From positions 1-22,758 of the IMG/VR virus record IMGVR_UViG_3300017971_000788: a stretch of DNA of 22,758 nt, one strand, 5' to 3'. Each line of letters begins with the position of its first letter. The stretch's first letter is position 1. Below the pieces are notes generated by a model. It had not been told where the DNA came from. It saw only the letters and a program-made list of their open reading frames with translations, and searched no databases. Source of the stretch: a virus. Positions 555-22,729 of this stretch are shown piece by piece. The position numbers and the translations under genes are program-made.

Positions 555-863
555 ATGAGCAGTTACGATGAGATAAGACAGCAGGGCGACATTAATGCAG
601 AGATTCACTACCTGAAAGAACGGATTGAGGATTTGGAGTCCCGTATATCGAAAGAATCATGGGAAGATAACGTCAGCAAAGACTATCCTGTGCTGTGTTG
701 GGTTAGGGATGACGATACCATGCCGTTTAACAGAATTAGGGCGATTATCGGCATTGAGGGGGAAGACACATATAAGTATAAGACGTATGATGCTCCATAC
801 GCCCAAGCAGTACCCTTGACAAAGGGAGAGATTCAGCGATTTATGGATAATGCGCCTACCTAG
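555..863 (+). CDS. Small phage protein of unknown function (102 aa)
   Basis: The start is supported by AGGAG at 543-547, 7 nt before the ATG. An out-of-frame ATG at 550 stops at once. The N-terminal ~40 residues contain a charged helix with heptad-like spacing (INAEIHYLKERIEDLESRI), a likely short coiled coil. A predicted beta-rich part follows (DYPVLCWVRDDD, then RIRAIIGIEGEDTYKYKTYD). No catalytic motif, signal peptide or membrane segment is seen. It is the last plus-strand gene: its stop overlaps the 3' end of the convergent exonuclease remnant by 8 nt. It is probably an early or accessory protein; nothing in the sequence allows a firmer role. Confidence 0.7.
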   Translation: MSSYDEIRQQGDINAEIHYLKERIEDLESRISKESWEDNVSKDYPVLCWVRDDDTMPFNRIRAIIGIEGEDTYKYKTYDAPYAQAVPLTKGEIQRFMDNAPT

Positions 864-1248
864 CCATAGCTTTCGCAGGCTTCGAACTCCATGATCCACA
901 ATCATTGCATTGGAATCGCTGTCTTTTTGTTGTGCGAGTCCTGGTGAACCCTCTTCCACTATTGTGACCTATAACAGCATCGGCTTCAGAAAGAACTCTG
1001 TGTAAGGTTTCAACAACACCCTTATCTATTGTCGGGTATCTGGCTGGAGCGGTGAAGGGTTTAAATTCGGGGAAATCTATGACGCTGGTGACGTGTACCT
1101 TGTTGCTGTCAAACCACTTCCAGGCTCCACAGAATATATACCAGTCTTGTAGAATATCTTTGCAGCTAGGGGAGGCTTCGAATAGCTGAAACGTGGTGAC
1201 AATCATGTGAGATGTCTCAATATCCCACTCTAAACTGAAGTACACCAC
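856..1248 (-). pseudogene. Internally deleted YprB/DnaQ-like 3'-5' exonuclease remnant
   Basis: The reading frame resembles phage RNase H-fold exonucleases of the YprB type. It has motif I (WDIETS, residues 8-13), then FCGAWKWFDSNKVHVTSV (39-56) matching the usual 'CxAAKW..' strand, then EADAVIGHN (88-96). In the family IGHN runs straight into the second catalytic Asp (GDxFD), then about 100 residues to motif III and a C-terminal zinc ribbon. Here IGHN is followed within two residues by a zinc-ribbon tail (RGFTRTRTTKRQRFQCNDCG, 99-118). Exo motifs II and III and the first CxxC pair are therefore absent. The start is a GTG with no Shine-Dalgarno sequence, so the N-terminus may be eroded too. 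I infer an in-frame deletion product without nuclease activity. It lies downstream of the lysis genes and converges with the plus-strand genes. Confidence 0.65.
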
Positions 1249-7887: not shown

Positions 7888-9453
7888 TTACCTTCTGCCT
7901 ACTGGCTGATATTCAATGTCAAAAGAATGGACATTCCAGGCTGTATCTGTGTCAGATTCAAACCGAATCCCAAAGAAACGCCCAGTTACCCTTACATCTA
8001 GTTTGTCGTCTGTTGTTGGGTCGTAACTGTACGTTGTCCACGTATAGCCCTCGCCCTTTGTGTATTCAAATCCCACCTTCACCGTTAGCGCTACATTGGA
8101 GTCCACTCGTGGATATATTCGGGCAATTCGTTTTATTGTTGTTGGGTCGTCAAGGTCAATGCCTGTTTTCTCAACATAGCTAGTGAAGCTAGACCCATTA
8201 AATTGGTTCGTATTATCCGCTTGGAATAGTTTGGTATTCGTTGGATCGGTGATTAAAAGCTTATTTTCTGTTGGGTTAAACGCACGTTGATTCCAAGCAC
8301 CCGAATCTGTATCCCAGGTGTCGGCATCAGCATCCCAGGTGGTGTTCTCTGAGGGGTCTATAATCCCATATCCGATATACGGGGTGTTCGGAAGCTCACG
8401 TACAGCAAAGGAGTTTTCCTGATAATTCCAGACTAATGCGAGATCACAAAATGTAGAACCTGTCGATGGAAAGCATAGCCAGAGTTCATTTTTGGCATAA
8501 TTAGGTACAGTGAAAGACTGATCATAATTGTCAGAATCCAACTGATTAAATAACCACCGTTGCATCCGGCGATTAATAATAGATTCAATATTCGCGCCAT
8601 CGTGAGCAACCACGTCACCCGTAGTCAAACAAACATGTCTACCGTAGATTTCAGAAACGCAGTTTGTGGACAAAAGCCCCGATGTTTTGAAAATCTGCTG
8701 AAAGGAGAAAACATCATTCCCGCCTATGTAAGCCATAGACCATGTGGAGTCTGTGGAATACACCATATTATTATTTCTTAGCGGAAGACAATCGACTAGA
8801 TTCCCGGCAGACTCGCCAAAGTTGGTAAATCCGGCATCCTCTGATGCGTCGGCTTCATCCCAGGTCAAAGGTACGGCTCCCGCTGCTGCGGAGGTGGACC
8901 AACGCATTTTATGCGGGAAATCAGTGCCGCCCTCCACAGTATAGAGGGCAAGCAAAAATTCCCTAAAAGGTCTTATAACTTTAGCGGTATAGCCTTGATC
9001 TTCCCAGGTAACGCCTGAAGAATAAGTTAATGGAGCTAGATCGGTAGTGCCAGCGACGGGCGTGAACATTTGTGGCGCGTCTACCCCGTTTGTAATAACA
9101 GGGATTCCTGATATTAGACCGCCTGTCCATAAATTCGCTGAGTTGCCCGTAAAATCTTGATCACCTCCCCCTGACTGCCTTGTTATATTCCCGTGAGTGG
9201 TTCCGTCTGTGAGATAGACTTTGTCTAATCCCGCATATATCCAATAGTATAGCGAAGTGGTTGGAACAGGCAACACCCAATAAGGCGCAACCGTTGGCGG
9301 ATCATAAGCTACTGAATGGCCTTCAAATTTCTGTGCATAACCATTATGAAATCGGATATTCTGGGCATCTGTCCAGGCGTCATCTGGGATATCGTATTCA
9401 TCAGGATCATTAATTATCCCTAGATCGCCAATATTTAAAAAGCGCTTAATCAT
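7888..9453 (-). CDS. Tail nozzle / packaged-DNA stabilisation protein, P22 gp10-like (521 aa)
   Basis: The protein is beta-rich throughout and of the length usual for phage nozzle proteins. It begins with an N-terminal segment describing an extended strand and loop (IGDLGIINDPDEYDIPDDAW) and then shows recurrent strands with propeller-like spacing, such as NNNMVYSTDSTWSMAYIGG (residues ~228-246) and YGRHVCLTTGDVVAHDG. Such proteins attach below the adaptor to close the short tail and hold the packaged DNA. The position, two genes after the adaptor and directly before the ejection-type genes, agrees. It starts within the stop of the fibre gene upstream (ATGA). The nozzle identity comes from size, composition and order rather than a decisive motif. 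Confidence 0.6.
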   Translation of the reverse strand: MIKRFLNIGDLGIINDPDEYDIPDDAWTDAQNIRFHNGYAQKFEGHSVAYDPPTVAPYWVLPVPTTSLYYWIYAGLDKVYLTDGTTHGNITRQSGGGDQDFTGNSANLWTGGLISGIPVITNGVDAPQMFTPVAGTTDLAPLTYSSGVTWEDQGYTAKVIRPFREFLLALYTVEGGTDFPHKMRWSTSAAAGAVPLTWDEADASEDAGFTNFGESAGNLVDCLPLRNNNMVYSTDSTWSMAYIGGNDVFSFQQIFKTSGLLSTNCVSEIYGRHVCLTTGDVVAHDGANIESIINRRMQRWLFNQLDSDNYDQSFTVPNYAKNELWLCFPSTGSTFCDLALVWNYQENSFAVRELPNTPYIGYGIIDPSENTTWDADADTWDTDSGAWNQRAFNPTENKLLITDPTNTKLFQADNTNQFNGSSFTSYVEKTGIDLDDPTTIKRIARIYPRVDSNVALTVKVGFEYTKGEGYTWTTYSYDPTTDDKLDVRVTGRFFGIRFESDTDTAWNVHSFDIEYQPVGRR

Positions 9454-10228: not shown

Positions 10229-10840
10229 CTAATTAGCCACAGACATTAGCGGCGAACCGCTAACCTTGCGTTTATTATCTTCTTTCTGAATCATGCGTTT
10301 GGCGTTCTGGTATCTCATCTCCCAGTATTCCCTTTCTTTGTCATTACCAATGTACTCCCATGCTTCCACAAGAGACGCCGACAAAAGAATGTCTGGCGCG
10401 TTGTTTGTAAACCAGTTTGTCGTATTGGAATCGCTTAACGCTGTAGGACGGGCATAATACGTGCCAACTATCGTATAGGTTGAGTCTGGATAAGGGCCAA
10501 AAATGAAGTTATCCCCATCTTCGCCGATATATTTAGGCACTGAATCGCTGGACCTCGTTGGATAGTTTCGATAAATCCACTCAGCAGACTGCTTTAACAG
10601 GGGCTTGTCTGGACTTCCTGATATACGGGCATGCTTTAATTCAACATAATCGGAGGGCATAGCGGCTACCCCTGAAGCAATCGTGACACTTAACGCGGTT
10701 TCCATCGTCCTGATGCGTAACTCTCGATAGATTCTATTCTCGCCTAGCGAGATAAATTCAGGCACTCTTGATGTGTGCGCCGTAGAATCTATCCAGTTTT
10801 CTACCGATGTCTGTAATTCTGAGTAATTGGTGATAGCCAT
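10229..10840 (-). CDS. Head-tail adaptor protein (SU10/P22 gp4-like, 203 aa)
   Basis: The sequence matches the pattern of podovirus-type adaptor (connector) proteins. It has an N-terminal helix with Trp and a conserved 'VPEFISLGENRIYRELR' segment (residues ~26-42), then ALSVTIASGVAAMPSDYVEL (49-68), a beta-rich centre with FGPYPDSTYTIVGTYYARP (~113-131), and a C-terminal helical region (EAWEYIGNDKEREYWEMRY). These proteins form the ring below the portal on which the nozzle assembles. It starts in a 1-nt overlap with the TPR-glycosyltransferase stop, with AAGG about 7 nt upstream, and precedes the fibre and nozzle genes as expected. Confidence 0.8.
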   Translation of the reverse strand: MAITNYSELQTSVENWIDSTAHTSRVPEFISLGENRIYRELRIRTMETALSVTIASGVAAMPSDYVELKHARISGSPDKPLLKQSAEWIYRNYPTRSSDSVPKYIGEDGDNFIFGPYPDSTYTIVGTYYARPTALSDSNTTNWFTNNAPDILLSASLVEAWEYIGNDKEREYWEMRYQNAKRMIQKEDNKRKVSGSPLMSVAN

Positions 10841-12210
10841 TAAGAAGCCTTCTTGATTTCGGTTTTTGATGCTTTCCAGTTTTTGAAGGATCGGGTTAAG
10901 TCTTTTATCCCGATATCTCGATACAATTTCACAGAGTTAGCCCAAACATATTTTTTGGGATGGAATAGCCAGCCTGTAATCTTAGGCACCATGACCCAGG
11001 CCTCCTTACCTAAAGCCCCAGCTAGTTGAGTCACCGAAGTAGGGACCGCTATCACAAGGTCTAGCTCAGAGACCAAAGCCGCTGTTAGATCGTAATCTTT
11101 GATTTCGGTAATCCACGGAAAGTGATGAACCTTTATGCCGCGAGTCTTTTCAAATTCCGCTACTTCATCCGAGGCGTCATTATATTGAAGTGAAACCCAC
11201 TGAATATCCTTATCTCTCAAAAGATGCGCCATTGATTCTAGCGTTTTCTGTCTGAATTGCTTTCTGGATTGTTTTGTTCCGCCGGTCCACGCGATACCCA
11301 CCTTTAGCCCATCGCCAAGAGAATCCAAGAGACCTCTCATGGCCTTTCTCATATCAGAGTCAGCTTTCAGGTAAGGCGTGCCAGGGAAGTCTTCGTTTCT
11401 CTTCCGGTAATACTGCAAAGCCCCAGCCTGGGTAATATAGGCATCCGGTTCTACGTGAGATGGTAGCGCCAATTCAGCCTGCCATCTGGAGCCCGCAACA
11501 ATCACATTCTCAGGAAGGGAGCGCTCCATCAAGCCTTTTAATCTGGGCATACCGTCATAAATGACATATTTACAATTCTTAGCCATATCCTCAAAAACTG
11601 AGGAATAAATTAGCTCATCGCCTATCCCTTGCTCACCATTAACAATCACGGTCTGTCCCGGCGTACCGTCCCACATCGGAAGGTCGCCATACTGAATATC
11701 AGGCCTTGAGGCATGTCCGACCATTGAGTGATAGTTTTTCCAGCCTTCCTCCCAATCCTGAAGCATTAAGCAGGCAAAGCCTTTTGTTGATTGTCCTACA
11801 ACGTAATCAGGATCGATTTCAAGGCACTTGTCTATCCACTCCATAGCCGCATCAGGGTTACACATTTGCAGCTCTAATGAGGCCATGTTCGCCATAGCCG
11901 CCAAGGAATCAGGGTTTAACTCAAGGGCTTTTTCTAAACACCATCGGGTAGCCTTCCAGCCTTCCTCATCGTCTGTTTGGCAGCGGGCAAAGTTTACCCA
12001 GACCTCTGGTCTGTCTGGTGTCATTTTGGCACACCTGGCAAAGGCATTATAAGCCAGCCCTTTTTTGGCAGTTTGTATCATGATTCCGCCAAACAGAAAC
12101 AATGCCGGAGCATCGTTAGGATCTTCGTCTAGCAAGTCGTTTACAATATTGAGCGCTTTTTCATATTCGCCTCGCTCATAGGCTTCTTTAGCTTGGATAT
12201 GTCGGTTCAT
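10840..12210 (-). CDS. TPR-repeat glycosyltransferase (GT9/GT41-like fold, 456 aa)
   Basis: Residues ~4-165 contain about four TPR units (for example YERGEYEKALNIVNDLLDED, and ATRWCLEKALELNPDSLAAM). Residues ~180-440 form a GT-B-like transferase: GEQGIGDEL (192-200) matches the N-domain signature of bacterial TPR-glycosyltransferases, followed by GIAWTGG (305-311), SLQY (340-343) and DLTAALVSELDLVIAVPTSV (374-393) leading into QLAGALGK. Enzymes of this architecture transfer sugars from nucleotide donors, often to protein targets recognised by the TPRs. Donor and acceptor cannot be read from the sequence. It lies inside the head operon, coupled at both ends (4-nt and 1-nt overlaps), so a virion or host-surface glycosylation role is inferred. 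Confidence in the fold is high; in activity, moderate. Confidence 0.85.
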   Translation of the reverse strand: MNRHIQAKEAYERGEYEKALNIVNDLLDEDPNDAPALFLFGGIMIQTAKKGLAYNAFARCAKMTPDRPEVWVNFARCQTDDEEGWKATRWCLEKALELNPDSLAAMANMASLELQMCNPDAAMEWIDKCLEIDPDYVVGQSTKGFACLMLQDWEEGWKNYHSMVGHASRPDIQYGDLPMWDGTPGQTVIVNGEQGIGDELIYSSVFEDMAKNCKYVIYDGMPRLKGLMERSLPENVIVAGSRWQAELALPSHVEPDAYITQAGALQYYRKRNEDFPGTPYLKADSDMRKAMRGLLDSLGDGLKVGIAWTGGTKQSRKQFRQKTLESMAHLLRDKDIQWVSLQYNDASDEVAEFEKTRGIKVHHFPWITEIKDYDLTAALVSELDLVIAVPTSVTQLAGALGKEAWVMVPKITGWLFHPKKYVWANSVKLYRDIGIKDLTRSFKNWKASKTEIKKAS

Positions 12211-12518
12211 AGCTTTATCTTATTTGGATTGAGTTTGCGGTTTTCTGCTTTGTTTAGCTGCTTAACAGCATAATCATGCCACCCTCTTGAATAAGGTGGG
12301 TGCCCGCATTGCTGAGACCATTCCAAGACTTTTATTTGCGGTATCGTGCCGACATACCATCGGTTCTTGGTTCTATCCAATTGCCCCTGAGCCCGCATAT
12401 TGGCCTCAAGGATCGGATTCACGTCCTGAACCGATTTTATAATATTCTTCCCGGTTTCCGAGTCTGTATAGAAATAATCAGTTATCCCAGTAAATGGGTC
12501 ATAACCTAGCTTCTTCAT
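12207..12518 (-). CDS. Conserved-type phage protein of unknown function (103 aa)
   Basis: The N-terminus (MKKLGYDPFTGITDYFYTDS) and the following 'SVQDVNPILEANM' (residues ~30-42) resemble a small protein that I recall next to capsid genes in other tailed phages, but I know no function. The middle has VGTIPQIKVLEWSQQCG and the end is basic (NRKLNPNKIKL). The gene starts inside the HNH gene's stop codon (ATGA), with GGAGG 5 nt upstream contributed by the HNH coding sequence, and overlaps the TPR-glycosyltransferase gene by 4 nt. It may be a minor virion or head-completion protein. Confidence 0.7.
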   Translation of the reverse strand: MKKLGYDPFTGITDYFYTDSETGKNIIKSVQDVNPILEANMRAQGQLDRTKNRWYVGTIPQIKVLEWSQQCGHPPYSRGWHDYAVKQLNKAENRKLNPNKIKL

Positions 12519-13135
12519 GTGTCCTCCGTAATATGCTTATGCCTCTTGCCAGTTCTTATTTTTGAAACCATCTGGTCAGATATATTATATCGTTTAGCTA
12601 TATCTCTGCCTGTTTCATGACTGAACTTTATATCTCTTATCTGTTCATCAGTTAAAAACTGATTCCATTGCTTGAACGGTCTGCGGTTCCGTTGTTGCTC
12701 TGACCTGGTGGCCCATCGGCAATTAGATTTCTCATAATTACCATCTGGATCTATGCGATCAATCGTATGCTTATTGGTTGGTGGATCGCCCATATCTTCA
12801 TAGAAATTATCGAATACTAACCATCTGTCACAGACTTTAATGCCTCTGCCACCATAATACTTATACCCAGTAGCTTTTGGATTAGAACATCTTTTTTTCA
12901 TGTCATCCCATGATCTATATACCCTGGTATTCGTCATTCCATGTGTAGTCGCTCTTTCTTTTGAAAGGCAGCCGCATGACTTAACCTTTCCTGATGTAAG
13001 ATCAAATGAGGCGTTTACCTTTTCTGCCCCACAATCACAAATACAAAGCCATTTAGTTTTATTTTTTATTCTAATCGTATCTTTTACAACTAAGCGGCCA
13101 AACCTCTTTCCTTTCAAATCTGCAATTTTTCTCAT
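12515..13135 (-). CDS. Free-standing HNH endonuclease with N-terminal zinc ribbon and C-terminal HTH (206 aa)
   Basis: Residues 28-56 hold a zinc-ribbon-like cluster (KWLCICDCG ... SCGCL). Residues 72-106 show the family block VYRSWDDMKKRCSNP and YYGGRGIKVCDRW. The HNH core is residues 121-149 (HTIDRIDPDGNYEKSNCRWA, with His123 and the Asn residues), followed by SEQQRNRR. Residues 160-196 look like a helix-turn-helix (DEQIRDIKF ... GRDIAKRYNISDQMVSKI) that could give DNA specificity. Such phage HNH proteins nick or cut DNA and commonly act as homing endonucleases. It lies between the capsid gene and conserved structural genes and is AT-rich compared with them, consistent with insertion. Its ribosome site GGAGG lies within the 3' arm of a strong hairpin. 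Confidence 0.85.
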   Translation of the reverse strand: MRKIADLKGKRFGRLVVKDTIRIKNKTKWLCICDCGAEKVNASFDLTSGKVKSCGCLSKERATTHGMTNTRVYRSWDDMKKRCSNPKATGYKYYGGRGIKVCDRWLVFDNFYEDMGDPPTNKHTIDRIDPDGNYEKSNCRWATRSEQQRNRRPFKQWNQFLTDEQIRDIKFSHETGRDIAKRYNISDQMVSKIRTGKRHKHITEDT

Positions 13136-13203: not shown

Positions 13204-14166
13204 TCAAGTTAGGACTTCACCTATTTTTCCGCTCGATGCTTCATTCTTCGCTTCCAAAGTTAGCTCAGTAATCAGCATGGCTCGGTCAGAGTCACCCGTT
13301 TTGGCTAGTGGAGCGGTAGACATACCGCGAAGTTCTGCGATAGCCCAATATTCCATATCCAACAGGTAAATCTGATTGGTTGGCATGAATCGATTTGGCA
13401 CAATTGAATGCTCACCAAAGTCGGAAACATACACATCAGCAGCACCCACAACCGTACCTTGTGACTTCCCGGGTACATCTTTGTATAGCGTTGCGATACC
13501 GCTCAGATTTGACAGTTTACGCTTCATTGCAGAACCGACCATGATCACAGAAGGATCACCGCCATTATCCCAGCAGGATGCGATAACAGTCGCCAAAGGA
13601 TCTTCTAACTGTGTTGCAGTAGTGACAGTCAAGCCGGTGCCTGCAACAAACCCAGCGCCACCGCCTGGTGTGGTACCAGTAGATGACATCTTGTGGAAGT
13701 TAGAACCCAACCAAGCACAAACACCACCCAAAGCGCGGGCTGTAGCCGTGGCGGTAGGTGCATCACGATTCTGAGTGCTTAAAAGCGTTTTCTCAATATC
13801 GCGTTTTAGCTCACGACCACGTTTAGCTAGCTGGTATTCATACTCATCAGACCGGCCCGCCGTATTTACAGCACGCTGAGTACCAGAAACACTGATAACC
13901 TTACGGAAAATCTGTGTCCGGTTCCCTGGGCGAGTTGTGGCGGCTGCGGCGTCTGCGGTAGCGTCATCACCTTCAAGGTGAGCCACGGAAGTAGCTGCGG
14001 CTAATGAATCAGTTTGCCATTCATGATTGGTTGCGGTTGCGGTAGTACGTCCGATACCAGAGGCAAAAGGAGTCTCCATCGGAGAGATATCATAAATAAC
14101 GTCCGAAAGGTCTTCACGATTACCAATAGCATCAAACGAAGTAAAAGTATTGACCGGTAAAGCCAT
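13204..14166 (-). CDS. Major capsid protein, SU10/DUF5309 type, HK97 fold (320 aa)
   Basis: The N-terminus (NTFTSFDAIGNREDLSDVIY, residues 6-25, then DISPMETPFASGIGR) and the segment EWQTDSLAAATSVAHLEGDD are characteristic of the DUF5309/SU10-type capsid family. Further support is RKVISVSGTQRAVNTAGRSD (~88-107), the spine-helix-like YQLAKRGRELKRDIEKTLL (~111-129), and LDMEYWAIAELRGM near the end. It forms the icosahedral shell on the scaffold. An AGGAG ribosome site lies 8 nt before the ATG, overlapping the scaffold stop. No protease gene is nearby, so maturation probably does not need one. A hairpin follows it, as does the HNH gene. Confidence 0.9.
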   Translation of the reverse strand: MALPVNTFTSFDAIGNREDLSDVIYDISPMETPFASGIGRTTATATNHEWQTDSLAAATSVAHLEGDDATADAAAATTRPGNRTQIFRKVISVSGTQRAVNTAGRSDEYEYQLAKRGRELKRDIEKTLLSTQNRDAPTATATARALGGVCAWLGSNFHKMSSTGTTPGGGAGFVAGTGLTVTTATQLEDPLATVIASCWDNGGDPSVIMVGSAMKRKLSNLSGIATLYKDVPGKSQGTVVGAADVYVSDFGEHSIVPNRFMPTNQIYLLDMEYWAIAELRGMSTAPLAKTGDSDRAMLITELTLEAKNEASSGKIGEVLT

Positions 14167-14177
14167 GACTTATTCTC

Positions 14178-15221
14178 CTATTGTTTGAATTTTTGTCTAA
14201 AAATTGCAGCAGCATCCTCCATTGATCCGGTTTGTTTTAGCGTCTTTCTTAGCTGGGCTTCTTTTACACCATTAGCTTCAGTTTTTGATGGACGCTTACC
14301 GGGTTTTAGTACTTTAGGTAAAGGTTTCTTTAATTTCTTCTCCGCTGTTGCCTTACCTTGGTCATACAACATAGCCTTGTAAGCTAAGGTGATCGCAGTG
14401 GCATCATTGGTGTTAGAGATCACCTCATCAGAAAGCCCTTGCTCTTTGAGGTAAGAAGTAACCTCTTGAGCTACGTTCTCGCTCCATGTGGGAATGTTTT
14501 TAACAATCTGGTCACGCTGAGCCATAAGATAGGCTTGTTGCTGTTGCTGCATTTCAGCCGCAATCTGCTGGTTTGCCTCAGCTAGTGACTGCTGTGCTAC
14601 GGCCTGCAATTCAGAGAATTTCTGTCTGCGTTCTGCCAGCTCTTGCTTGCGAGCCGCGTACTCAGACGGATCATCTTCTCTCAATTCCTGCCAATTAATA
14701 TTCTCATACGGTGCGAGAAACTCTTTCTCTAAAGTCTCTAAAAGAGTGTTTTGCTGTTGCGCTATTTGTTGCGATCGCTGAACTAATCCACTTAACGCAG
14801 TCTCGCGTTGTTTTTCTAGTTCGGCGATCTTTTTGCTGCGATTGGTAAGGTTTGCGTCTCCCTGGTATGCGTTTATCAGTTGTTCTAGGTTTACGTCGGA
14901 TAAATCCTCACCGTCCTTAACTCGGAAATTCAAAGACCCTTCTTCGTTGATATTCAACCAGTCAGGCTTTGCACCAATTAATTCGGCAAGTTCTTCGGCT
15001 CCTAGCTCAAGTGATTCGGCTCCGGTATCGGCTCCTTCTACTTCGCTGGTTTCCTGAGCTTCCACCTCGGTGGATTGCTCTTGTTCAGGCTGTTCGGTCT
15101 CTATGCTTTCGGTAGGTTCCGCCGCCGCCTCTACGGTCTCTTCAGCACCCTCTTGAGGTGCATCAGTAGATTCTTGAAACATCCCTTTGAATTGCTCTGC
15201 TGCTTGTTCCATTGTGCTCAT
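14178..15221 (-). CDS. Capsid scaffolding protein (347 aa)
   Basis: Directly upstream of the capsid gene. Composition is typical of a scaffold: a very acidic, disordered N-terminal ~80 residues (Glu/Thr/Ala-rich, for example EQPEQEQSTEVEAQETSEVE), then long Gln- and Glu-rich helices with coiled-coil potential (SKKIAELEKQRETALSGLVQ; QQIAAEMQQQQQAYLMAQRD), and a basic C-terminus (KKLKKPLPKVLKPGKRPSK) with a final helix. A positively charged C-terminal helix is the coat-binding part in P22-type scaffolds. The start has a strong GGAGG at 15229-15233, 7 nt upstream, and overlaps the preceding gene by 4 nt. Confidence 0.85.
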   Translation of the reverse strand: MSTMEQAAEQFKGMFQESTDAPQEGAEETVEAAAEPTESIETEQPEQEQSTEVEAQETSEVEGADTGAESLELGAEELAELIGAKPDWLNINEEGSLNFRVKDGEDLSDVNLEQLINAYQGDANLTNRSKKIAELEKQRETALSGLVQRSQQIAQQQNTLLETLEKEFLAPYENINWQELREDDPSEYAARKQELAERRQKFSELQAVAQQSLAEANQQIAAEMQQQQQAYLMAQRDQIVKNIPTWSENVAQEVTSYLKEQGLSDEVISNTNDATAITLAYKAMLYDQGKATAEKKLKKPLPKVLKPGKRPSKTEANGVKEAQLRKTLKQTGSMEDAAAIFRQKFKQ

Positions 15222-15493: not shown

Positions 15494-17388
15494 GGGTGCC
15501 CTCCTTCCTTCTTGATGCGTGTTTCTGTGCGCTTGATCTGCGAAGCAAGCAGCTTGATTTTTCTGGGGCTCTTGTCTTTAACAACCTCTTCAACCAAGAG
15601 ATCCATCTGTGATTGACGGTATTCCTCCAGCAACATAAGCAACTGTTGCTGGGTTTCTATGAAATACTGATTCCCGCCGATGATGACTTTGCGACGTTTT
15701 GCCCTCTTTCCTCCGCCTGCCGTTGGCTTTACTGTCTCAACAAGAGACGGATTATTAACATTAGGATTAAATGAGACTAACCGCAGATAACCAGGCGGAA
15801 TTTCACCAACAACCGACCCAACAACGTCCGTCTGAGGCGCGTAGCCTGTTAGGGTTAAAGTACCCGCAGGTGGAACCTCGATTGTTGCTGATACTTGGGC
15901 TAGTTGTGGGGCAAACCCTGTAAGCGCTAAGCTCCCCGCCCCTGGAATGGCAACAACATTACCAGCGATAACCGCGTCTGGAGCATAAGAGAATAAGTTT
16001 AAATTTCCCGCAGGGGGCGCTTCTGCTGTGTTGCCAACCTTTGCAACACCTGGAGCAAACCCCGTTATAGAAAGCGACCCAACAGGAGGTAGCTGCTCTA
16101 TCGTGCCATTAAATGTAACGCTAGGCGTTATGCCTGTTAGAGTTAGCGACCCAATAGGCGGCAGTTCCTCTATTGGGCCACCAGCCGCTGCGGCCTTTAT
16201 CGCTATACTCAACCACTGTCTAGCCGTACCATTTACAGTAGTTGGGAAGCTCATATTATAGCCCAAAGAATCGAATGAGCTAAATGAACCCTCTGAGTGT
16301 TTGGCGTATCCGCTTATATAATCATAGACTTGAACAGCGTTAGAGGTCGAATGATTACTGGCTTCATCCGATGTCCCTGCCCCATCATCTGAGGCAATAC
16401 CCGAACAGCTCTCAGTTGTATCATCAAATGCGCCTATTCCGAGATATACTGGGTCATCCGTCTTTAACGTGTTTACTGTTGGCCCGCCCGTCATGCCTAA
16501 TATGACCGCTTGTGGCTCAAAGGCAGGATCTTCTACGTTCCACGTCCCGGTTGAAGTGGGTGAACTTACAACATCAACCGAAACACCATTTGTGTCGCCG
16601 GTATCCAAAGACATAGCGATAAAGTAGTCATTGCCTGGACTGTCGGCACCTGTATTGATTGAGAAACCATTAGCATCAAAATCTTGTGCTGTGCCTGCAT
16701 AGGCTTGGGAATCACTGAAAATTTGCACCAAACACGCATCATTCCTTGTGATTGTTCCAGCTACAGCCGAAGTCTGTCCTGCTCCGTTGTAATAGGCAAC
16801 ACACCCCTGAGAAACAGAGTCCGATGAGTTATTATGCGCAGCACCAAAATTTATAACTGCTTGGGTTCCTATACCTGACGCATTGTAGGCCACGCCAGCG
16901 GTTAAAACTAAATTCGGTTTGAATCCAATACCAGTAAAATCATTAACGCCCGTAGTCGTTAGCTGCAATCTGGAAACATCATAATCAGTGCAGCCCTTAA
17001 TCAATATAACGGTAAGATAATAAGCAAGACCACCGTCAACTGTAGTGAAATCAATGGTTATTCCATTAGTGGCCCATGAGTCAAAATTCCCGGCAACAAC
17101 CGTTCCCACACCATCAATATCAACTAATAAAGATGCCCTGGCTGAATCGGCACGATAAGTGTCAGTAGTTCCTTGATTATCCTCTGCACTAGCCGACATA
17201 CCCTGAGTCGTTGTGCCGTCAGTAAACGAAATACCGATGATGGAATCATCAGCAGGGTTGTTTGTGGTATTCGCCATTGACGTGATAATAATGGCCGCTT
17301 GAGGCGTGCCAAACCCGCTCGACTCAAAGGATTTTGTCGTTGTGGTTGTTGGCGTTGTGCCGTTTACGACTGCAATTTCAATGGACAT
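15454..17388 (-). CDS. Large repeat-built virion-type protein: triplicated domain plus six 24-residue repeats (644 aa)
   Basis: I do not recognise a named family. Residues ~25-132, 155-263 and 289-400 are three diverged copies of one beta-rich domain. Each opens with a GF.P-type strand (GFGTPQAAIII; GFKPNLVLTAG; AFEPQAVILGM) and closes with an 'FDS.G' strand and a hydrophobic strand (YYLTVILIKG; YFIAMSLDTG; WLSIAIKAA). Residues 410-553 are six tandem units of exactly 24 residues with consensus P-P-x-G-x-L-x-L-T-G-(F/Y)-x-P. The C-terminus is a basic hinge (GGGKRAKRRKVIIGG) and a charged helix ending in EEEEELLLMLA. It lacks a signal peptide and starts in a 1-nt TAATG overlap with the propeller gene. 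A capsid or tail decoration role is inferred from context and beta-repeat design. Confidence 0.7.
   Translation of the reverse strand: MSIEIAVVNGTTPTTTTTKSFESSGFGTPQAAIIITSMANTTNNPADDSIIGISFTDGTTTQGMSASAEDNQGTTDTYRADSARASLLVDIDGVGTVVAGNFDSWATNGITIDFTTVDGGLAYYLTVILIKGCTDYDVSRLQLTTTGVNDFTGIGFKPNLVLTAGVAYNASGIGTQAVINFGAAHNNSSDSVSQGCVAYYNGAGQTSAVAGTITRNDACLVQIFSDSQAYAGTAQDFDANGFSINTGADSPGNDYFIAMSLDTGDTNGVSVDVVSSPTSTGTWNVEDPAFEPQAVILGMTGGPTVNTLKTDDPVYLGIGAFDDTTESCSGIASDDGAGTSDEASNHSTSNAVQVYDYISGYAKHSEGSFSSFDSLGYNMSFPTTVNGTARQWLSIAIKAAAAGGPIEELPPIGSLTLTGITPSVTFNGTIEQLPPVGSLSITGFAPGVAKVGNTAEAPPAGNLNLFSYAPDAVIAGNVVAIPGAGSLALTGFAPQLAQVSATIEVPPAGTLTLTGYAPQTDVVGSVVGEIPPGYLRLVSFNPNVNNPSLVETVKPTAGGGKRAKRRKVIIGGNQYFIETQQQLLMLLEEYRQSQMDLLVEEVVKDKSPRKIKLLASQIKRTETRIKKEGGHPWEEEEELLLMLA
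15500..15506 (-). promoter_or_regulatory. Strong ribosome site deciding the GTG start of the 91-aa gene
   Basis: AAGGAGG on the minus strand lies 6 nt upstream of GTG at 15493-15491, inside the coding sequence of the 644-aa gene. It is what makes the GTG start credible and gives the small gene its own entry site rather than coupling alone. Confidence 0.75.
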
Positions 17389-18704
17389 TAGACTTTAAAT
17401 ATATAGACGTTTTCAGTTGTACCATTAACCCCAATATACGCCTGCTTTGATGGGATATACTGGAATCTACCGTAGGTGCCGTTAGGCTGTTTGGTAGTTG
17501 GTGTTACGGTATTCGATGGGTTTATCGTCACTTGTGTGCAGACCCAGGTATCAGGGTCGATTTCGTATAAATTTACACCACCATTCCATAAAACGAATTT
17601 TTCCCTGACCGGATTAAATATAAATCCGGGAGCTTGCGCGTATTCAGGGAACGCATCGCCTGTGGCCGTTCTTTTTGTCCGTATACCACTGGTTAAATCA
17701 CAAGATACTAAACCGTGACTCGAACCCGTTGAGACCATCATCTGCCTAACAGGATCAATAGCTGCTGTGGTGTAGTTTTCTACATATAACGTAGGACCAC
17801 CGATATCAGTCCAGGTATTATCTAATGAGTTATATCGTTGCAGTTTGGCATTGTTGTTATTCCCCACCCACACGTAAGCATTACCCGTCGATGGATCATA
17901 GGCTGTGATTGTGCCAGCATCACCGGGATTGAACGGTAGCAGCGTTTTTGTGCCGTCCCAAGTTAATGTTGATAAATCCAACCCAGGACTGACCGGATAG
18001 CTTAATCCTGTCGGATTTATGCCCTGAACACCAAATGACATTAAAGTGTCAATGCTTTCTAAATAACACAGGGAATTGTAAGAATGGAAAGAGGCTGGGG
18101 TATCGTCTGATTGAAGACCTGAATAAGTGCCAGCGCCACCGGCAAAACTTGGTTCCGTTATTCGTGACCACGAAAGGGAATCAATATCGAACGCATAAAC
18201 CTCATTGCCTGCATAATCCCCATGACCTCCACCCATGACTAGCAATCTATTTCTGGTGGTATCGTAAGCACCGCCTGACCAAGTGGTCATAATAGATGCT
18301 GGATCGCCAGCCGGAACGGGATCAGGATAGACCGCAGATAAGTTACTTCCAGTAACCTCTAACCAAGTGCCCGGTGCCATAGCATCTATGGCATTAATCG
18401 TGCCTCCCGATAATTCTACAATCCGCGCCTTGACAACCGATTTTGTGTGATAATTAAACATATGCCTCTCTGCGAGCATAAACAGAGAATGAATATAATG
18501 CAGAAACTCACTTTTATTCGGCGCTGCATCTAATTTTCCCTTCAACCAATCCAACTCAGATTCTTCATCAGCCGTGATTGAGAATGTAGTAATGAAATCC
18601 TGTCTGGATATTTTTGTATCAGTCCATTCAACAAATGCCGCCCAGAATTGATGGACGGGAAGTCTTGGCCTTTCAAGACCGGATAAACGATCTAATATGC
18701 TCAT
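17388..18704 (-). CDS. Kelch/galactose-oxidase-type beta-propeller virion protein (438 aa)
   Basis: Two adjacent ATGs (18707 and 18704) are possible. The second is preferred because AGGGG then sits 5 nt upstream. Positions here count from the first. Residues 1-97 are a separate helical domain (LPVHQFWAAFVEW, FLHYIHSLFMLAER) of a type I recall as a stand-alone small phage protein. Residues ~140-439 show repeated Kelch-like blades: WSGGAYDTTRNRLLVMGGG (143-161) with GNEVYAFDIDSLSW (168-181); TITAYDPSTGNAYVWVG (266-282) with LQRYNSLDNTW; FIFNPVREKFVLWNGG (362-377) with LYEIDPDTW. Galactose-oxidase copper and Tyr-Cys residues cannot be confirmed, so a binding rather than an oxidase role is likelier. 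The propeller may bind host glycans or decorate the virion. Confidence 0.7.
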   Translation of the reverse strand: MSILDRLSGLERPRLPVHQFWAAFVEWTDTKISRQDFITTFSITADEESELDWLKGKLDAAPNKSEFLHYIHSLFMLAERHMFNYHTKSVVKARIVELSGGTINAIDAMAPGTWLEVTGSNLSAVYPDPVPAGDPASIMTTWSGGAYDTTRNRLLVMGGGHGDYAGNEVYAFDIDSLSWSRITEPSFAGGAGTYSGLQSDDTPASFHSYNSLCYLESIDTLMSFGVQGINPTGLSYPVSPGLDLSTLTWDGTKTLLPFNPGDAGTITAYDPSTGNAYVWVGNNNNAKLQRYNSLDNTWTDIGGPTLYVENYTTAAIDPVRQMMVSTGSSHGLVSCDLTSGIRTKRTATGDAFPEYAQAPGFIFNPVREKFVLWNGGVNLYEIDPDTWVCTQVTINPSNTVTPTTKQPNGTYGRFQYIPSKQAYIGVNGTTENVYIFKV

Positions 18705-18711
18705 CATTCCC

Positions 18712-19602: not shown

Positions 19603-20433
19603 TTATTCCCCTTTGCCGCCTTCGCGGATCATTGTTGCAATTAAACCAGGACCGTGAACCTTTAAGTTCCAGTCTTGCCCGAATGCTTTTACCATCGTCA
19701 TGAAATCCATTGATTGCTGGACCATCCATGCCGACACTGTGAAGATGTGATCGTTTAGTTTGATTTGTACGCTTTCCTGATTATCCGCGTTTGGCTGGTC
19801 ATAAGCATGATGTTTTCCGTCCAGAAAACAGGAATCAAGCCCGAATATCTCAAAGTTTGAATAGCCCATGATTTGCAATAAGCGAATAGCTCTCAAGGCT
19901 ATCGTGGACCCGCCCTGAATAGGGACCCATTGATCTGTGTACTCATGGATGATCTCGAACTCCTCTGTTGAATTCATCGCGTGCCAGATTAACACCCGTT
20001 GACCTTCCAGCTTATCGAATACCGCAGGGTCACACTGGGAGGCAACAAAATAGGTACACCCCTCAACATCGTGAATGAAGTTCTCATTATTTGGCTTGGC
20101 GTCAAGGAGTACCTGTGCAGAGGGCTTAATGCCGTGATCCAGCAAGGTCTTGACCGTGTTTGCTAGGGCGACAACTTTTCCGCCATTGGCCTGAACTTCC
20201 TTTAGTTCGTCCAGCGTATCAACAAGACTAGGGCCACCAGCCACTAGAGCGACAACTGTATCCTGCTCCTTATGCGGCCATACCTGCGGCAAATCCCGCT
20301 TGAGGTTCGTTACAATGTTTTCCTTGATTTTCTCCGATGGAGTATTTAGGGATGCAAATATCTTTAACCCTAACTCTTCGTACTCTATTTCCTGCCATTC
20401 ATTATCCGATTGAGGTAGCTCGACCTGCTGCAT
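19603..20433 (-). CDS. MptE/DUF115-like protein (276 aa)
   Basis: The core matches the DUF115 (6-hydroxymethylpterin pyrophosphokinase MptE-like) domain shared by archaeal MptE and bacterial Maf flagellin-glycosylation proteins. It has a nucleotide-site loop VALVAGGPSL (61-70), then LLDHGIKPSAQVLLDAKP (97-114), and the C-terminal signature GGSTIALRAIRLLQIMGYSN (174-193) leading into FEIFGLDSCFLDGKHHAY (194-211). In Maf proteins this domain is linked to transfer of nonulosonic acids to flagellin. In phages its substrate is unknown. The gene overlaps the portal 3' end by 31 nt and has AAGGTG about 7 nt upstream. Along with the TPR-glycosyltransferase it suggests glycosylation of virion or host-surface structures; a pterin- or nucleotide-pyrophosphokinase role is the alternative. 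Confidence 0.75.
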   Translation of the reverse strand: MQQVELPQSDNEWQEIEYEELGLKIFASLNTPSEKIKENIVTNLKRDLPQVWPHKEQDTVVALVAGGPSLVDTLDELKEVQANGGKVVALANTVKTLLDHGIKPSAQVLLDAKPNNENFIHDVEGCTYFVASQCDPAVFDKLEGQRVLIWHAMNSTEEFEIIHEYTDQWVPIQGGSTIALRAIRLLQIMGYSNFEIFGLDSCFLDGKHHAYDQPNADNQESVQIKLNDHIFTVSAWMVQQSMDFMTMVKAFGQDWNLKVHGPGLIATMIREGGKGE

Positions 20434-22729
20434 CGCGTTTCACCTTTTTGTTTCCGATTGAAATAATACGTCCTTCGCTGTCCCTTACGATTTCCTTAGA
20501 CGTGTTGAGTTCTGATGATAGCCTGTCAATCTCGTCCATCAGATCACTAATTAGTGCGTTTGTCGCGCCCATAGCCTCTTTCGGTGCGTCTTTCATTTGC
20601 GCTTCCAGCAGATCGGTCTGTGAGGAAAGATCCGCCTTGTATTGCTCTATAGCTAGCTTGGCAGAGGCTTCATTGCGATCAATAATCTGCTGCTGCTGTT
20701 TTAATTGCGCCTCTAGCTCTGCTGAGCGAGCAGACATTTGGGCCTTTATCTCATTGTTCTGCGTGTCTGACATTAGCTTAGCTTCAGCCAGCTCATTTTT
20801 TATCCGGTCAACCTCGGCCTTGGCCATGTTGGTTTGTGCGGTAACTTGTAACTGTTGAGACTTTATTTGTGCTTCTAGTTCGGCCTTTTGAGCGTCTAGT
20901 TGAATCCGCTGCATTTCTACCTGCCGCTTGTCAGCCTCTATCTGCTGATTGGATTGAATCAGCATCATATTAGGATCAGGCTGGGGCGGGGCCGGGGGTA
21001 TTGTTTGCGGATCAGTGAAGGCCATTTGAGGCGAAGGATGAGACATTAACTCGGCAAACCGTTTACCCGTATCATAGAGGTTTTGAGGTGTAGCAAACCC
21101 CATCTGTAGGGCTTCCACTTGCTTTTGCCATAACGCGTCAAGATTAGCCAGATTCTCTCTGGACCCCTTAACCCCAAGACCTACTTTGACTGTAAAATTT
21201 GTTCTTTCGCGCCATTCTGTAGGATTGACCGGAACCCAATCATTTCTTAGCTTGACGATTTCCTCTTTATGTCCATGCTTTCTAGCCAGCTCATGGAGGT
21301 CCCTAAATAAGCCCTTTACGCCGGTTTCAGCAAAGATACGAGCAATCATCTCCACCTTGGCCTTGGCTTCCTGCATCATGCCCATAACAACGCCAGTGTT
21401 AGCTTGCGCTAATACGTTAGGATCAAGCTGGGCCTGGAAGTCGCCAACACGTTCATTCTTGAGCTGGTCAGTCATTTCAAAGAGAGTAAAGGCTTGAGCC
21501 GGAAGGCCGCTAGACTGTCTTTCTAACACTGCATCATGAGGACTTCCATCAACCGCACGCAACCCAAACGGCTTAGAGGTTAGAAGGTCATCAACATTAA
21601 CCTTATTCTCATCATAATAGGTGGTCCCGTTAATTAGTTGATTAACGTTATCCATGTAAGACCGGAACAGCCCGGTCCTGATTTCTTGTAAATCCTTCAG
21701 GATATCGGCAATCGATAGTCCAAAGAACTTATGAGTCAGAATAATAGGCGTAATTGCGTTAAATGGAACCTGGTCAACTTCCTCATACTCAATGAAGTCG
21801 CCGCTCCTAAACACCTTTAATAGTTCGGCAACTCCGTCACCGTTCTGATCTACGCGAATATATCCCTCAACAACAAAGACCTTACGCATTTGCTGGTTGA
21901 TTGTGTCGGTGTAGGTGTCCTCATCAGATAAATGATATCGAGACTGGTTTTCCTCGGTATCGGGAATGTCCTCTACAGCCATCTGCTCTATATCAGACTC
22001 GGAGTAACCCATCTCCCGTAGTTCAGAGATCGTGTAAGTAGTTTTATGGGCGGTAAATCTCGCCTTCTTGGGGTCTACAGAGCATGCATCATTGGAGATT
22101 AGAAACTCTTCTGGAGGCATAACCTCAATAAGAATGTCCTTCTTTTCTTCGGTACGGATAAACGTGGCATTGTGTAGTGTGATGGGTTCGCCAGTGTCTA
22201 AGACGTCCTGCTCTTTCTCGTACTCAATGAGTTCTAAGTCGTCCTGGGTATTGAGGTACTGGAACTCTACATCTGTCAGATCCTTGTAGGATTCTCTGGT
22301 TTGCTTCTCGCCTTCCTCAACATAGTGCTTTGTAATGCCGTTCTTCTGTAGCAGCGCATCTTTAAACCATGAGTATAGGATAAGAAATCCATTATTCTTT
22401 TTATAAAATACGTGGTTTAGGTAGTCTGTTTCCTGTTCGGCTTGCTTCTCATCTTCAGGCCCTACGGGCTCAATATCCACTGCTGAGTCTGCATCGGTGA
22501 AGATTCGGATTAATGAGGGCAAGATCCACTCGATAACGTCCATGACATCACGAGTCTGAACCTGGGATCGGCCTTCCATCTCCGTTCCCATAGGCTCGGC
22601 AAGATAGCGCTCCATCGCTGTTGATCGCTCATCTGATAGCTCGCCAGCCCACTCTCCCATAGCCGAACTGTATTCAGCGTCGAAGATTGCTTTTAGCTCT
22701 ACATCTGAGAGCGATTTTTTATCAGCCAT
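20402..22729 (-). CDS. Portal protein, podovirus (P22/SU10-like) type (775 aa)
   Basis: The dodecameric portal is the DNA gateway at one capsid vertex. Family-type features include the N-terminal DVMDVIEWILPSLIRIFTDA (about residues 63-82), the segment GLSIADILKDLQEIRTGLFR (~336-355), then TYYDENKVNVDDLL, and QLDPNVLAQANTGVVMGMMQ followed by AKVEMIARIFAETGVKGLFR. Residues ~590-730 are a long Gln/Lys/Glu-rich coiled coil (RQVEMQRIQLDAQKAELEAQ), fitting the extended C-terminal barrel of P22-type portals and the large size. The C-terminus ends with two similar units, RDSEGRIISIG and RDAAGRATSIG. It is the first full late gene in the window; terminase is expected just upstream. Confidence 0.85.
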   Translation of the reverse strand: MADKKSLSDVELKAIFDAEYSSAMGEWAGELSDERSTAMERYLAEPMGTEMEGRSQVQTRDVMDVIEWILPSLIRIFTDADSAVDIEPVGPEDEKQAEQETDYLNHVFYKKNNGFLILYSWFKDALLQKNGITKHYVEEGEKQTRESYKDLTDVEFQYLNTQDDLELIEYEKEQDVLDTGEPITLHNATFIRTEEKKDILIEVMPPEEFLISNDACSVDPKKARFTAHKTTYTISELREMGYSESDIEQMAVEDIPDTEENQSRYHLSDEDTYTDTINQQMRKVFVVEGYIRVDQNGDGVAELLKVFRSGDFIEYEEVDQVPFNAITPIILTHKFFGLSIADILKDLQEIRTGLFRSYMDNVNQLINGTTYYDENKVNVDDLLTSKPFGLRAVDGSPHDAVLERQSSGLPAQAFTLFEMTDQLKNERVGDFQAQLDPNVLAQANTGVVMGMMQEAKAKVEMIARIFAETGVKGLFRDLHELARKHGHKEEIVKLRNDWVPVNPTEWRERTNFTVKVGLGVKGSRENLANLDALWQKQVEALQMGFATPQNLYDTGKRFAELMSHPSPQMAFTDPQTIPPAPPQPDPNMMLIQSNQQIEADKRQVEMQRIQLDAQKAELEAQIKSQQLQVTAQTNMAKAEVDRIKNELAEAKLMSDTQNNEIKAQMSARSAELEAQLKQQQQIIDRNEASAKLAIEQYKADLSSQTDLLEAQMKDAPKEAMGATNALISDLMDEIDRLSSELNTSKEIVRDSEGRIISIGNKKVKRDAAGRATSIG

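Follow-up and report, generated by a model that had tools for sequence, protein, structure and literature searches.

A glycosyltransferase-like gene with a predicted N-terminal TPR superhelix (TPR-GT) stands at one junction of the head operon of SU10-type phages, and sequence comparison marks it as a recurrent feature of this phage group, not a one-phage oddity. Sugars are probably added by these phages to their own particles, a reading that draws on sequence and predicted structure and that we hold probable because relatives of the gene are widespread, because its place is kept in most of the 80 best loci, and because an unrelated sugar enzyme sits in the same slot elsewhere.

The stretch of DNA that we analysed (the window) comprises 22,758 bases, IMG/VR virus record IMGVR_UViG_3300017971_000788, and belongs to an uncultured short-tailed phage; a second contig, IMGVR_UViG_3300017963_001551, encodes the same TPR-GT protein (100%). 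On its minus strand the window carries an SU10-type head operon with a portal protein (20402..22729; SU10_portal PF23899, E 6e-177), a head scaffolding protein (14178..15221; phrog_3927, E 1.3e-37), an SU10-type major capsid protein (MCP), the candidate acceptor (13204..14166; SU10_MCP PF17236, E 1.4e-94), a small core head-operon gene termed p3982 (12207..12518; phrog_3982, E 1.1e-6), an SU10-type adaptor, or head-tail connector (10229..10840; SU10_adaptor PF24175, E 1e-33), and the virion structural protein phrog_3287 (7888..9453; E 2.3e-122). TPR-GT itself (10840..12210, minus strand) is a real ORF of 456 aa, whose ATG overlaps the 3' end of p3982 by 4 nt and whose stop overlaps the ATG of the adaptor by 1 nt; downstream of it come the adaptor, the fibre-like phrog_6465 and phrog_3287. 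The original prediction had placed the gene among conserved head genes, which the adaptor, MCP, portal and scaffold bear out, but the overlapping upstream gene turned out to be the uncharacterised small phrog_3982.

All three motifs named in that prediction, GEQGIGDEL, GIAWTGG and LDLVIAVPTSV, are present in the window protein, and its proposed architecture of TPR units followed by a GT-B domain agrees with the Pfam, AlphaFold2 and Foldseek results. The TPR superhelix spans aa 3-149 (11764..12204, minus strand) as helix pairs, from H3-12 to H137-149 in the model, with Pfam TPR matches far above chance (TPR_19, E 2.1e-13; TPR_14, 1e-10). The catalytic domain spans aa 165-456 (10843..11718, minus strand), as judged from the model's secondary structure and from fold matches to 3tov, 1psw, 4rb4 and 2h1h. 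In a Pfam scan of the window protein this C-domain had no match at E<1 and thus no glycosyltransferase family, and Glyco_transf_9 (PF01075) was matched by 8 of 60 relatives at E<=0.01 (best 1.8e-5). Searching the PDB sequences with a profile of the aligned C-domains likewise gave no match, so structure comparison was needed. The full-length AlphaFold2 model, with 60 relatives as its alignment, reached a pLDDT of 96.7 and a pTM of 0.93, and the model of the C-domain alone a pLDDT of 96.3; a GT-B cleft is predicted, in line with the structural check suggested earlier. In Foldseek the full-length model was closest to SPINDLY/OGT (7y4i, E 2.9e-10), with a TM-score of at most 0.45, indicating a different arrangement of the domains. 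The C-domain model, in contrast, matched GT9 structures (3tov, 6.1e-7; WaaF 1psw, 1.0e-6; TibC 4rb4, 2.7e-5; WaaC, 2.1e-4) with moderate TM-scores of 0.4-0.6, and the 50 matches listed for it included GT9 enzymes, fucosyltransferases and epimerases and no OGT. The predicted fold of the C-domain is therefore GT-B with GT9 structures nearest, and the likeness of TPR-GT to GT41 lies in the order of a modelled TPR superhelix and GT-B domain, the catalytic domain not being nearest GT41. The kinship with GT9/GT41-like enzymes that had been proposed is thus supported.

GEQGIGDEL (aa 192-200; 11611..11637, minus strand) contains D198, the presumed catalytic base, which is kept in all 83 aligned sequences, including members without the exact search motif GEQGIGD; W308, G310-G311, R320 and D384 are near-invariant in the same alignment. 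From its motif (GIGD) and position, D198 would be the equivalent of WaaC Asp13 and TibC Asp110. Further along, VPTSVTQLAGAL (aa 389-400; 11011..11046, minus strand) is, by hhalign and family counts, the counterpart of the GT9 D-T-G-x-x-H nucleotide-binding motif. Alignments to WaaF (probability 8%) and WaaC (16%) were weak matches covering this C-terminal nucleotide motif only, WaaC V-D-T-G-L-S-H standing opposite V-P-T-S-V-T-Q without gaps over the motif. The window protein thus lacks the GT9 C-lobe motif D-T-G/S-x-x-H, having P-T-S-V-T-Q, and its clade carries P390 and Q395 where WaaC has the motif Asp and His. Accordingly, ADP-heptose cannot be assumed as the donor, and GT9 likeness is no guide to the sugar. 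Across the 83 sequences, position 390 carries Q, H, C, P or T in most members (Asp in two), and position 395 is His in 63 and Q in the window clade; since the former varies family-wide and the latter is His in most other members, the motif change is local.

Relatives of TPR-GT are encoded in 398 viral-contig stretches, and we examined the best 80 of these as loci. The adaptor was found in 72, p3982 in 69, MCP in 65, scaffold in 58, phrog_3287 in 53 and portal in 41, all lower bounds, since many contigs are fragments. The gene order runs portal, a small gene, scaffold, MCP, p3982, TPR-GT, variable genes, adaptor, phrog_3287, and the placement between p3982 and the adaptor is fixed in most of the best 80 loci. 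The synteny survey that had been suggested therefore speaks for a strongly conserved place in the head operon, so that, with a GT-B cleft predicted as well, none of the refuting outcomes open to computation came about; the expectation that such an enzyme would be uncommon there was not supported. The interval from TPR-GT to the adaptor holds at least one ORF of at least 100 aa in 62 of 72 loci; among 104 interval ORFs (Pfam, families overlapping) were 22 Methyltransf_23, 14 GT8, 8 FkbM, 4 GT9, 2 DegT aminotransferase and 4 radical SAM/SPASM proteins. No such ORF lies in this interval in the window and its nearest relatives. The radical SAM/SPASM proteins, found here in a phage head operon in several of loci L014-L086, are possible peptide-modifying enzymes.

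An optional companion of TPR-GT in the window is an MptE-like/DUF115 gene (19603..20433, minus strand; PF01973, E 3.4e-21), whose domain also occurs in Maf flagellin glycosyltransferases. Such a gene lies near the portal in six loci (the window, L010, L011, L012, L098 and L103), all of which also carry TPR-GT; general co-occurrence, put forward for checking in the original prediction, was nevertheless rejected, as only 4 of the 80 TPR-GT loci have the gene. We also rejected p3982 as a dedicated partner, because it adjoins the adaptor in phages without TPR-GT. Neither p3982 nor the DUF115 gene had a tblastn match among isolate phages.

We then sampled from the capsid side, with the capsid protein as query, so that loci were not chosen by TPR-GT, and with HTVC106P and ctXG6705 added. 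Among the matches listed, 60 complete MCP-to-adaptor spans contained TPR-GT in 4 cases, a GT-A-like gene in 22 and neither in 34, and none contained both. Since 56 of these 60 spans lack TPR-GT, head assembly in this group does not depend on it. The GT-A-like protein (22 loci among L115-L174, for example L117:1927-2580) is phrog_1574, with a DSDM motif and weak Glyco_trans_2_3 matches below the Pfam cut-off; it is unrelated to TPR-GT in sequence, presumably also in fold, and is like it in being glycosyltransferase-like and in occupying the same slot between p3982 and the adaptor. The two occurred together in 0 of 80 TPR-GT loci (Fisher p 1.7e-10, loci counted as independent). Neither enzyme accompanies p3982 and the adaptor in Pelagibacter phage HTVC106P and ctXG6705. 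By gene content, TPR-GT is therefore an optional addition to a conserved head operon, inserted at a single junction, where an unrelated enzyme, apparently of the same kind, can replace it. This slot logic, two unrelated glycosyltransferase-like genes for one place, is the new point of our analysis. In the isolate Microcystis phage Mel-JY34 (PP438425), whose host is named, a GT-A-like gene directly follows the capsid gene (L178:4968-5663). In the database phrog_1574 is annotated as of 'unknown function', and on its sequence it may deserve a glycosyltransferase annotation.

The head-operon TPR-GTs form one clade together with ctDrO704 and a Nitrospiraceae-binned phage contig (62 sequences, support 0.957), separate from other phage glycosyltransferases and from a small sample of bacterial TPR-GTs; support for the window clade was 0.996. 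The Nitrospiraceae entry (L088, OMJK01000028.1), labelled as a bacterium, has phage adaptor and phrog_3287 genes beside TPR-GT and is a contig of phage origin assigned to a bacterial genome bin. Bacterial matches were compared by ORFs, and those in Rhodospirillaceae and Azospirillaceae (L089, L090, L091) were tandem arrays of at least three TPR-glycosyltransferase genes, one protein having two GT domains. For six close pairs with usable divergence, TPR-GT dN/dS was 0.03-0.11, similar to that of MCP; by this measure the head-operon gene is under purifying selection. Pairwise distances of TPR-GT and MCP correlated with rho 0.63-0.76, more strongly than any other pair involving MCP; on the same locus sets, MCP gave lower values with scaffold, portal, phrog_3287, p3982 or adaptor. 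The correlation would fit MCP as the acceptor but may simply reflect linkage. The MCPs of phages with TPR-GT are slightly longer than those of phages without it and show no Ser/Thr enrichment (0.181 vs 0.195 without TPR-GT), which lends no support to an obvious O-glycosylated insert.

We favour, at somewhat better than even confidence, the view that TPR-GT is an active soluble glycosyltransferase that modifies a protein of the virion, MCP being the likeliest single acceptor. Given the gene, its predicted fold, synteny, constraint and the slot alternative, we infer its activity, acceptor, sugar and timing as follows. The TPR superhelix would bind the acceptor protein, as in OGT, and the GT-B domain, GT9-like in fold, would transfer a sugar from a host nucleotide-sugar with D198 as base; made late and alongside the head proteins, the enzyme would glycosylate the virion protein before or during assembly. 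In many relatives, neighbouring enzymes (methyltransferases, FkbM, GT8, a second GT9) would extend or modify the glycan; the window clade has TPR-GT alone, or perhaps together with the DUF115 gene. We counted in favour of a virion glycosyltransferase the full conservation of D198 and the near-full conservation of W308 and R320, the low dN/dS, the single clade, the confident GT-B model, the fixed slot with its glycan-type neighbours and GT-A-like alternative, the covariation with MCP and the precedent of mycobacteriophages; we counted against it the GT9 motif Asp and His missing from the window clade, the missing Pfam glycosyltransferase match, the moderate TM-scores, MCPs no richer in Ser/Thr and the gene's absence from most MCP-sampled spans. 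Our tentative extension, to which we give a little less than an even chance, is that many environmental SU10-type phages, as one large group, share a dedicated virion-glycosylation slot between p3982 and the adaptor. Either TPR-GT-B with a glycan cassette of varying content or a GT-A-like enzyme unrelated to it would fill this slot, and capsid glycosylation would have been gained there more than once, in a serotype-like diversification.

A narrower form of the favoured explanation, which we regard as rather unlikely, places the sugar on a component of the tail (fibre, adaptor or nozzle) instead of the capsid, so as to tune adsorption. The adaptor, fibre-like phrog_6465 and phrog_3287 do come next in the operon, and SU10 tails consist of adaptor, nozzle and fibres (PMC9509320), but a fibre gene was present in only 7 of 80 TPR-GT loci, and adaptor distances track those of TPR-GT poorly (rho 0.18-0.25), MCP doing so best. 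It is unlikely, too, that an active enzyme serves, at a late stage of infection, to change a surface glycan or a protein of the host and so, for instance, to keep out superinfecting phages or stop progeny from re-adsorbing. GT9 enzymes commonly build LPS, and this usual role favours a host target, as do the arrays that bacterial TPR-GT relatives form in alphaproteobacteria and the existence of serotype-changing phage glycosyltransferases (PMC12619734). It is opposed by the position of TPR-GT, which in most of 80 loci is flanked by core head genes, by the other glycosyltransferase-like gene filling the same slot, by the covariation with MCP and by a model that is all-globular, TPR plus GT-B. 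Serotype-converting glycosyltransferases, moreover, usually lie in lysogeny modules.

That catalysis has been lost, leaving TPR-GT as an assembly factor or a sugar-binding virion part, we consider quite improbable: motif residues have given way to P390 and Q395 in the window clade, TPR proteins often serve as scaffolds and translation of the gene is coupled to that of head genes, but D198, W308, G310-G311 and R320 are nearly always kept, glycan-type enzymes are common beside TPR-GT in relatives, and the two altered positions are, respectively, variable family-wide and His in most other members. Glycosylation of hypermodified phage DNA in the manner of T4 is highly improbable; phage glycosyltransferases often modify DNA (PMC12619734), but no base-modification gene was seen in the window, a record that is itself a fragment, the gene's position in the head operon is late, and TPR domains bind proteins.

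Virion glycosylation by phage enzymes is already known from mycobacteriophages, and TPR-GT would be a variant of it. According to PMC12363180 and PMC12619734, citing Freeman 2023, mycobacteriophages (Che8 gp110, Corndog gp38, Myrna) attach sugars to their capsid and tail-tube proteins by means of their own glycosyltransferases. The outcome proposed for TPR-GT, a phage-encoded glycosyltransferase acting on virion proteins, is the same, but here the phage is uncultured and SU10-type, the gene is fixed in the head operon and the protein has a TPR domain. TibC/BAHT, which has a protein acceptor, a four-Cys iron finger and an N-terminal beta-barrel (PMC4358343), resembles TPR-GT in its GT-B fold and, as we infer, in a comparably placed catalytic Asp, but the C-domain of TPR-GT has too few Cys for such a finger, and its N-terminus is TPR and not a beta-barrel. 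Bacterial TPR-GTs of Rhodospirillaceae, Azospirillaceae and Synechococcus share the domain order, C-domain homology to the phage profile (E down to 1e-128) and 26-31% identity, but fall outside the phage clade and, in several genomes, form their tandem arrays away from head genes. In the literature that we searched we found no TPR-glycosyltransferase in phage head operons. The earlier observation is thus confirmed and its interpretation partly supported. If the favoured view is right, virion glycosylation would be widespread in environmental phages, beyond mycobacteriophages, and could be read from sequence through a fixed genomic slot; the use of a sugar-coated phage head where antibodies are absent would become a testable question, and a compact TPR-GT would be available for protein glycosylation.

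Several other features of the window are of note. An HNH-homing-endonuclease-like ORF (12515-13135), recognised by eye and without a Pfam match, lies between the capsid gene and p3982; a few other loci have similar ORFs, and in ctDrO704 (L004) an annotated endonuclease adjoins TPR-GT. The head operon also holds a Kelch-type beta-propeller gene (17388-18707; Kelch_6, E 2e-5), which, among the loci examined, the window phage shares with its near-identical contig alone. Finally, an ORF at 856-1248 (minus strand) appears by eye to begin as an RNase H-like exonuclease ('WDIETS', 'GHNSG') would and to pass directly into a zinc-ribbon-like tail, possibly through an internal deletion.
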